38,522 nucleotides of DNA. It comes from Actinomycetota bacterium. GTDB taxonomy: Bacteria > Actinomycetota > Acidimicrobiia > Acidimicrobiales > Ilumatobacteraceae. Below, piece after piece: positions 11,711 through 37,442 of this stretch. The stretch lies in the NCBI GenBank assembly GCA_026393695.1, contig JAPKZR010000290.1:1-38522 (forward strand). The letters run 5' to 3'. The translations under genes were made by a program, and so were the position numbers. The notes under the pieces were generated by a model. That model ran no database searches. It was given only the letters and a program-made list of their open reading frames with translations, and was not told the origin of the DNA. The number at the start of each line of letters is the position of its first letter. The stretch's first letter is position 1.

Positions 11711-12724
11711 TTACTGCAGCACGATCTGAGCGTCGCCCGCGATGACGGTGCCGATGGTGACAAACCCGGCAGCAACCAGATCGGCCTCAGCCGAAGCGCT
11801 CACTGCTGCGAGCAGCCCGCCCGACGTTTGTGGGTCGTAGCCAATTGCCACTTGCGCATCGGTGAGATCGGCCGACGCACTCACGTGATGCTGCACATGC
11901 TCACGATTGCGGGGGTCGCCGCCGGTGCGTACGCCACGAGCCAAGGCATCGACCACACCCGAGTACATCGGCAGTCGGTTGTAGTCGTACGCAAACACTG
12001 CGCCAGCGCGCTCGGCCATCTCCCACGAGTGGCCGAACAATCCGAAGCCGGTGACATCGGTAACCGCGTGCACTGCAGCGCCCTCGGCCTGCAATGCCTC
12101 GGATGCCAAACGGTTGAGTCGACGCATGCCCGCAATGGCCTCGGCCTTGTCGGCATCGCTGCCTCCTGCCAATGCAATTGCTGTGCCGAGCGGCTTCGAG
12201 ATCATCAAGATGTCGCCAACCAACGCGCCCTCTTTGCGGAAGATGCGATCGGGGTGAACCAAGCCCTGCACCGCGAGTCCGAAGATGGGCTCAGGGTTGC
12301 GGATGGTGTGCCCGCCGGCAATGGCGCCACCTGCTTCGGCAACCACTGCGGCCGCCGCGTCGAAGATGGCAACGATGGCTTCGCGAGGGAAGTGCTCGGG
12401 GAACGCAGCCACATTGACGGCAACCGTGACGCGACCACCCATCGCGAACACGTCGCTGCACGCGTTGGCCGCAGCGATAGCGCCGAAGTCAGACGGATGG
12501 TCGACAAGCGGAGGAAAGAAGTCGGTGGTGCTGACCATCGCGAGGTCGTCGCTGATCTTGTACACGGCCGCATCGTCGAACGGAGCAAGTCCAACAATGA
12601 GCGCCGGATCTGATGCTGCGGGAAAGTCTTGCACCAGGCTCGAGAGCAACGAGGCTCCCCACTTGGCTGCGCAGCCTCCGCAAGAAGTCCACTCGGTGAG
12701 GCGCATATTGTCGATGTCAGTCAC
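11711..12724 (-). CDS. selD: Selenide, water dikinase (selenophosphate synthetase), Cys form
   Basis: LTEWTSCGGCAAKWGASLL (catalytic Cys/Lys region), DDAAVY, ANACSDVFAMGG, GGHTIRNPEPIFGLAVQG. GTG start at 12724 or ATG at 12706; the track start at 12886 lies inside the divergent MOSC gene. Confidence 0.9.
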   Translation of the reverse strand: MTDIDNMRLTEWTSCGGCAAKWGASLLSSLVQDFPAASDPALIVGLAPFDDAAVYKISDDLAMVSTTDFFPPLVDHPSDFGAIAAANACSDVFAMGGRVTVAVNVAAFPEHFPREAIVAIFDAAAAVVAEAGGAIAGGHTIRNPEPIFGLAVQGLVHPDRIFRKEGALVGDILMISKPLGTAIALAGGSDADKAEAIAGMRRLNRLASEALQAEGAAVHAVTDVTGFGLFGHSWEMAERAGAVFAYDYNRLPMYSGVVDALARGVRTGGDPRNREHVQHHVSASADLTDAQVAIGYDPQTSGGLLAAVSASAEADLVAAGFVTIGTVIAGDAQIVLQ

Positions 12725-12748
12725 GCGGCACAGCCTACGGTGAGAGCC

Positions 12749-13519
12749 ATGATCAGCCTCGGCCCCTACGAGTTCACCCAGACCGACGCCCTCCGAACGC
12801 TTGGCAACCTCGGCGACCTGTGGCTCACGATGATGCAGGGCCGCAGAAGCGCCGCCGCAGACGCTCTTGAGCAGAACCTCATTCACTCAATCACCGAAGC
12901 GATGGGCACCGCGCCAAACGCTTCGCTCAGCGAACTCGGAACCCTTGGCGCGCAAACACTGGGCGACTCCCCCGCACTCGAAGGAATCTTGGCAAGCGTG
13001 TGGTCTACGTTGGCCGCGGCCTCGCAGGCGTTGCGCGCCGACGGGCAGATGCCAGCCACAGCTACCGGCACGGTGACCCAACTCAGCTCGTCGAAAGGCG
13101 GAGTTCCGAAGTTGGCTCTTGAGTCGGTCGACGTTTCGTTTCGCGGCGTCGTCGGCGACATGCAAAAGTCTCGCAATCACCACGGGCGACCGTGGCAAGC
13201 GTTGTGCATCTATAGCGACGAAGTCATCAACCAGTTCCGCACCGACGGCCACCCAATTGAGCGCGGATCATCCGGAGAAAACATCACCACGTCGGGTCTC
13301 GATTGGGTCGACATCCGGCCCGGGGTACGGCTGCGCATCGGCACTGTGCTGGCCGATGTTCAGGCCTACGCAACCCCGTGCAAACACAACGCGCAATGGT
13401 TCAGCGACGGCGACTTCAACCGCATGAATTATCTGCGCGGTGCAGCGAGCCGGGTGTATGCAACCGTCATCGAACCAGGGCGTATTGTCACCGGCGATGC
13501 AGTGATTCTCGAGCCGTGA
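12749..13519 (+). CDS. MOSC-domain protein with about 110-residue N-terminal extension
   Basis: VDVSFRGVVGDMQKSRNHHGRPWQALCIYSDEVINQF...ERGSSGENITTSGLDW...YATPCKHNAQWF...GRIVTGDAVILEP, typical of MOSC/YiiM-like proteins. Confidence 0.82.
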   Translation: MISLGPYEFTQTDALRTLGNLGDLWLTMMQGRRSAAADALEQNLIHSITEAMGTAPNASLSELGTLGAQTLGDSPALEGILASVWSTLAAASQALRADGQMPATATGTVTQLSSSKGGVPKLALESVDVSFRGVVGDMQKSRNHHGRPWQALCIYSDEVINQFRTDGHPIERGSSGENITTSGLDWVDIRPGVRLRIGTVLADVQAYATPCKHNAQWFSDGDFNRMNYLRGAASRVYATVIEPGRIVTGDAVILEP

Positions 13520-36902: not shown

Positions 36903-37442
36903 ATGGCCACCGTTTTTCTTCACCGGCGCGCGATGCGCACGGTTGCTTTGATCGCCGCTGCCGCCGCACTCACGGCGTGCGGCAGCTCCGCGAAGATCAC
37001 TACCGCCGAGCCAACAACTGTGGCCACCTCGCCATCGAGCCTGTTGACCTTCACCTCTGCCACCGTCGGCGGCGGCCAGATCGATGCTGCCTCGTTCATC
37101 GGTAAACCCGTCGCCTTTTGGTTCTGGGCCCCTGGTTGAAGCGCGTGCAACGCAGAAGCCGCCTCGGTCGAGGCGGCCAGCAAGAAGTGGGCCGACAAGA
37201 TCACGGTTGTGGGCGTGGCATGGAACGGCGACGAAGCCTCAATGCAGGCGTTCATCGACCGTCACGGCATCACCTTTGCGAACATGAATGATCAGACCGG
37301 CGAACTCTTCGCCCGTTTCGGCGTACCGGCGCAACCCGCATGGGCCTTTGTGTCGCCAAACGGAAAGGCCACCGCCTATCTTGGCGTTATGGAAGAGACA
37401 GCTCTCGACGCCGCCCTCACGAACACGATTGCAGGCAACTGA
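36903..37442 (+). CDS. Predicted selenoprotein: DsbE/Mpt53-like thioredoxin-fold lipoprotein with in-frame TGA (Sec79) in a UxxC motif
   Basis: MATVFLHRRAMRTVALIAAAAALTACGSSAK...GKPVAFWFWAPG[U]SACNAEAASVEAASKKWADKITVVGVAWNGDEASMQAFIDRHGITFANMNDQTGELFARFGVPAQPAWAFVSPNGKATAYLGVMEETALDAALTNTIAGN*. The track splits it (36474..37139 and 37209..37442) in the same frame at TGA 37137-37139. Start 36903 or 36933. Confidence 0.88.
37158..37177 (+). promoter_or_regulatory. Putative bacterial SECIS hairpin
   Basis: GCCGCCTC-GGTC-GAGGCGGC: perfect 8-bp stem, GGTC apical loop at 37166-37169, first loop base 26 nt after the TGA. Confidence 0.75.

Follow-up and report, generated by a model that had tools for sequence, protein, structure and literature searches.

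An open reading frame (ORF) in the window, by which we mean the whole 38,522-nucleotide stretch of Ilumatobacteraceae DNA analysed here, carries an in-frame UGA at codon 79, the point at which ordinary annotation would cut the gene short. A small GGUC-capped hairpin follows this codon, raising the question of whether UGA79 is decoded as selenocysteine (Sec) under the direction of a bacterial SECIS element, or whether codon and hairpin have a more trivial origin.

The putative Sec ORF and its hairpin

Reading through UGA79 yields an AhpC-TSA/Redoxin-like product by domain match, whose closest solved proteins are Mycobacterium MPT53 (1lu4, E 2.9e-25) and DsbF (3ios, E 2.3e-22); these matches suffice to assign the fold. 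Its redox motif, FWFWAPG-U-SAC, places Sec at the first position, so that thioredoxin-fold homology and Sec at the first CxxC position coincide in one ORF. None of the NCBIfam selenoprotein models reaches its cut-off against this protein. Because a lipobox-like LTAC sequence lies near the N-terminus, the protein is probably an exported lipoprotein; an internal ATG at 36933 is an equally possible start. A search after the terminal UGA found no rule-compatible hairpin, and that UGA is therefore read as the stop. Coordinates are collected in the table below.

Coordinates of the features discussed; positions refer to the window unless a contig handle is given
Feature	Position	Strand	Basis or remark
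selD (selenophosphate synthetase), Cys form	11711..12886	-	TIGR00476, 318 bits, above cut-off, at 11789-12703
DsbE/MPT53-like thioredoxin-fold ORF with Sec	36903..37442	+	179 aa if UGA79 is Sec
In-frame UGA, codon 79	37137..37139	+	aligned with first Cys of CxxC
Cys82 codon, resolving residue of UxxC motif	37146..37148	+	direct reading
Putative SECIS stem, 5' arm, GCCGCCUC (DNA GCCGCCTC)	37158..37165	+	direct reading, fold, covariation
Apical loop GGUC (GGTC)	37166..37169	+	presumed SelB wing-3 contact
Putative SECIS stem, 3' arm, GAGGCGGC	37170..37177	+	direct reading, fold, covariation
Terminal UGA stop of Sec ORF	37440..37442	+	
FdhA (formate dehydrogenase alpha) of the same genome, L190	G000:C215:8747-10615	-	one in-frame UGA

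In its mRNA form the hairpin reads GCCGCCUC-GGUC-GAGGCGGC (37158-37177). As the initial annotation had stated, its stem is a perfect 8 bp, with 18 nt between UGA79 and the 5' arm and the loop starting 26 nt past UGA79. RNA folding, which that annotation had proposed as a check, gives a minimum free energy structure of 37110-37200 that includes exactly this hairpin, although this stretch, taken as a whole, is of ordinary stability (z = -0.81; equalled by 43 of 200 shuffles). The annotation had also cautioned that Ala-rich codon usage might partly account for the stem, rightly so where one sequence is concerned: GGTC with 8 bp is regained in 341 of 20,000 synonymous recodings of the same protein (1.7%). 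Judged from the single sequence alone, the hairpin is weak, suggestive evidence.

The published bacterial SECIS model (the Zhang and Gladyshev consensus as given in PMC13188914) calls for an apical loop of 3-9 nt with a G among its first two positions, 16-37 nt past the UGA, and an upper stem of 4-16 bp with an energy of -7.5 kcal/mol or lower. With a stem energy of -16.2 kcal/mol, this gene agrees with the model throughout, in loop, spacing, stem and energy. It resembles known bacterial SECIS elements in its small GGUC apical loop, its stem of at least 4 bp, its 26-nt spacing and its location inside the coding region, but differs in that its 8-bp stem is unbroken, whereas in most relatives the stem is interrupted, beneath the four pairs next to the loop, by a 1x1 mismatch in place of the bulged U of E. 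coli fdhF.

Comparison of UGA and Cys homologues

Homologues were gathered across the order, from 397 genomes, and aligned with the redox codon as anchor; this codon is TGA in 106 homologous copies and TGC or TGT in 27. Among the 102 distinct TGA sequences to which these copies reduce, 96 carry GGTC exactly at +26, where codon-preserving shuffles lead one to expect 12 ± 3%, and 81% combine GGTC with all four upper pairs, against an expectation of 3.7 ± 1.9% (300 codon-preserving draws, maximum 9.8%). As judged from the aligned sequences, conservation of the hairpin across the UGA homologues is far beyond chance.

Around the invariant loop the upper stem varies (CCUC/GAGG, CUUC/GAAG, CUGC/GCAG, CGGC/GCCG, CCAC/GUGG, ACGC/GCGU and others). 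At column pair 25/38, below the four upper pairs, standard pairing is seen in only 33% of the TGA sequences, as against 79-95% for the three outer stem pairs. In the usual family structure, a 4-bp upper stem capped by GGUC is thus separated from a 3-bp lower stem by a 1x1 mismatch. In this gene the 25/38 mismatch has become G-C, which accounts for the unbroken 8-bp stem. Scored on the contiguous upper stem alone, 27 of the 106 TGA homologues pass the published limit of -7.5 kcal/mol; that many relatives lie above it, because the mismatch splits their stem under the simple rule applied, is a point against the SECIS reading.

Covariation was assessed in 78 diverse TGA sequences, picked on the loop and not on pairing, with two shifted-hairpin sequences omitted. 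Paired cells amount to 92.3% (76.0 ± 0.9% when shuffled), double-change cells number 76 (16.4 ± 3.1 when shuffled, with 0 of 500 shuffles attaining 76), and the covariation score is 0.475 against 0.169; all slid registers score far below the true stem register. A protein tree that excluded the hairpin codons puts the number of changes in the three variable upper pairs at no fewer than 11, 11 and 12; the covariation therefore does not reflect a single inherited change.

The Cys homologues provide the matching control. In 26 of them pairing is no higher than after shuffling (51.1% vs 52.0%), no consensus fold was found, and GGTC occurs in two (8% vs 5% expected). Other Actinomycetota supplied a second control set of 75 distinct Cys homologues. 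They were retrieved by a contig search whose back-translated query had Cys in place of Sec and which therefore returned Cys homologues only; nine of the 75 contain GGTC, by chance. GGTC with a 4-bp stem was found in 0 of 26 and 0 of 75, or 0 of 101 in total. The structure thus appears to be under selection in the UGA genes and is missing from their Cys counterparts. At one locus (L050, G211:C154:59000-62900), Cys and Sec paralogues lie about 750 bp apart, and the hairpin is present in the Sec copy only.

The initial annotation had named two observations that would speak against its SECIS-like reading: a lack of hairpin conservation or compensatory change among TGA homologues, and an equally strong hairpin in Cys homologues. 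Conservation and compensatory change were both found, and the Cys homologues lack the element; the reading is borne out on both counts.

Selenium machinery and competing explanations

The genome encodes the remaining parts of a Sec pathway. Here selA adjoins selB, whose product carries a SelB-wing_3 domain; a tRNA-Sec has the anticodon TCA (UCA in RNA); and the selD of the window bears the motif TSCGGCAAK, with Cys instead of Sec. SelA, SelB, SelD and tRNA-Sec are accordingly all present. Across 50 genomes examined, selA was found in all 31 tested genomes having a UGA homologue, and none of the 12 genomes without selA contains one.

The SECIS of E. coli fdhF has GGUC in its apical loop and a bulged U in its stem. 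The present gene shares the GGUC loop, as does FdhA of its own genome in the form GGUCU, but has no bulged U. The FdhA hairpin, GUGGUC-GGUCU-GGCCAC, has a 6-bp stem and places its loop 18 nt past the UGA, so that the distance from loop to UGA is 8 nt longer in the thioredoxin-like gene. FdhA is a second, unrelated gene of the same genome sharing the GGUC loop core; a covariance-model search of that genome turned up no other gene with the exact element of the thioredoxin-like gene. The initial annotation was correct that the stem lacks a bulged U, but the divergent SelB specificity that it thought this might indicate is not supported: the lack of a bulge is peculiar to this gene, in which 25/38 is now G-C, and there seems to be no need for a divergent SelB. 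The FdhA hairpin, too, has a GGUC loop. Rfam gave no match in the window, nor in FdhA and homologue loci run as a check, so its silence on the window is uninformative.

Three other explanations were weighed. That the hairpin is a roleless by-product of Ala, Glu and Ser codon choice in a GC-rich coding region would agree with a stem that fits the encoded peptide, with the 1.7% of synonymous recodings that yield it and with the ordinary stability of the local fold; yet codon-preserving shuffles of the UGA family fall far short of the observed frequency of loop plus stem, nothing of the kind is seen in Cys homologues, whose protein fold is the same, and paired positions covary, so that the comparative counts already refute this explanation and we consider it exceedingly improbable. 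No greater credence is due to the ideas that UGA79 stems from a sequencing error, that it is the stop of a pseudogene, or that it truly ends translation and is followed by a separately translated segment. The window does come from a draft assembly of 346 contigs, but UGA at exactly the redox codon recurs in dozens of independent genomes, always replacing the redox Cys and with the downstream protein conserved, and this recurrence is itself a refutation.

Decoding of UGA79 as another amino acid, such as Trp or Cys, through a reassigned code or a suppressor tRNA, with the hairpin only modulating read-through, seems very unlikely too, if marginally less so. Nothing specific favours it, and against it stand the gene's own UGA stop, the full Sec pathway including the TCA-anticodon tRNA-Sec, the confinement of UGA homologues to genomes where selA was found (50 tested) and the strict alternation of UGA with the redox Cys. 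On the strength of the homologue comparison, not of the single sequence, the hairpin at 37158-37177 is almost certainly a bacterial SECIS element directing Sec into a thioredoxin-fold oxidoreductase.

Under this SECIS reading, the mRNA hairpin would present its GGUC loop 26 nt 3' of UGA79 to SelB, which, carrying GTP and Sec-tRNA-Sec(UCA), would bind the loop via its C-terminal winged-helix domain and deliver Sec as UGA79 enters the A site. The product would be secreted and probably lipid-anchored: a thioredoxin-fold thiol-disulfide oxidoreductase akin to MPT53, DsbE and DsbF, whose active site reads U-S-A-C. What the sequences show is the hairpin with its covariation, the alternation of Cys and Sec, and the genes selA, selB, selC and selD; that SelB binds, that Sec is inserted, that the protein is exported and that it has a redox role are expected from established knowledge.

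Variant elements, paralogues and relation to known families

A further point against the SECIS reading is that GGUC at +26 is absent from 6 of the 102 UGA homologues, and two more that do carry GGUC belong to the same shifted group. These eight departing homologues fall into two groups of families (L033, L042, L052, L064 and L066; L145-L147). Nearly all of these few sequences allow a hairpin at 34-35 nt, with loops such as AGGUG, AGUUC or GUU, which would replace the GGUC element at +26 or compete with it; for L042 and L147 a different hairpin received the best score under the rule. A similar sequence, CGAGC-AGUUC-GCUCG, occurs in another UGA homologue, L188.

At eight loci (L101, L103, L115, L126-L129 and L148) UGA occupies both positions of the redox motif (FWAPW-U-PF/PH-U). 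The two UGAs precede a single GGUC hairpin by 26 and 17 nt, spacings that fall within the published 16-37 nt, and the homologue is possibly a diselenide thioredoxin-like protein. In a single genome, G277, no fewer than six TGA paralogues bear the GGUC hairpin (L056, L060, L127, L180, L181 and L182). Two further candidates were rejected: a G211 homologue with an in-frame TAG, considered as UAG recoding, has an ordinary Cys codon at the redox position, and a weak covariance-model match in G102, which lacks selA, considered as a fossil SECIS, sits in an unrelated frame.

Taken together, these variants may be read as follows, at what we judge to be even odds. Acidimicrobiales-type actinobacteria would hold a many-copy, order-wide MPT53/DsbE-like selenoprotein family, one genome containing six or more UGA paralogues and some members having a UxxU motif whose two UGAs, at 26 and 17 nt, share a hairpin; on one or more occasions the SECIS would have moved 8 nt and acquired a different loop (AGGUG or AGUUC), the protein fold being unchanged, so that SelB proteins of one order would accept different loops and spacings.

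Sec-containing thiol-disulfide isomerase-like, Redoxin-family and Prx-like thiol:disulfide oxidoreductases, with UxxC and sometimes UxxU motifs, are listed in Table 1 of PMC13188914. The present family resembles these in its PF00578/PF08534/cd02966-type fold, its UxxC motif and the UxxU of some members, but its nearest solved relatives are the actinobacterial MPT53 and DsbF, and it may either belong to one of the listed families or represent a parallel Cys-to-Sec change. The literature searched yielded no paper on selenoproteins in this order, though such papers may exist.

This kind of SECIS is already known, and the element described here is a new, well-supported example of it; conservation of the putative SECIS extends throughout an order of Acidimicrobiia-type actinobacteria. 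The locus thus adds what is almost certainly a real selenocysteine gene in a widespread, little-studied actinobacterial order. The roughly 100 homologous elements, together with matched Cys controls, form a useful set for probing SelB recognition, one in which the GGUC loop is invariant, the 4-bp upper stem covaries, a mismatch is tolerated and the spacing varies.
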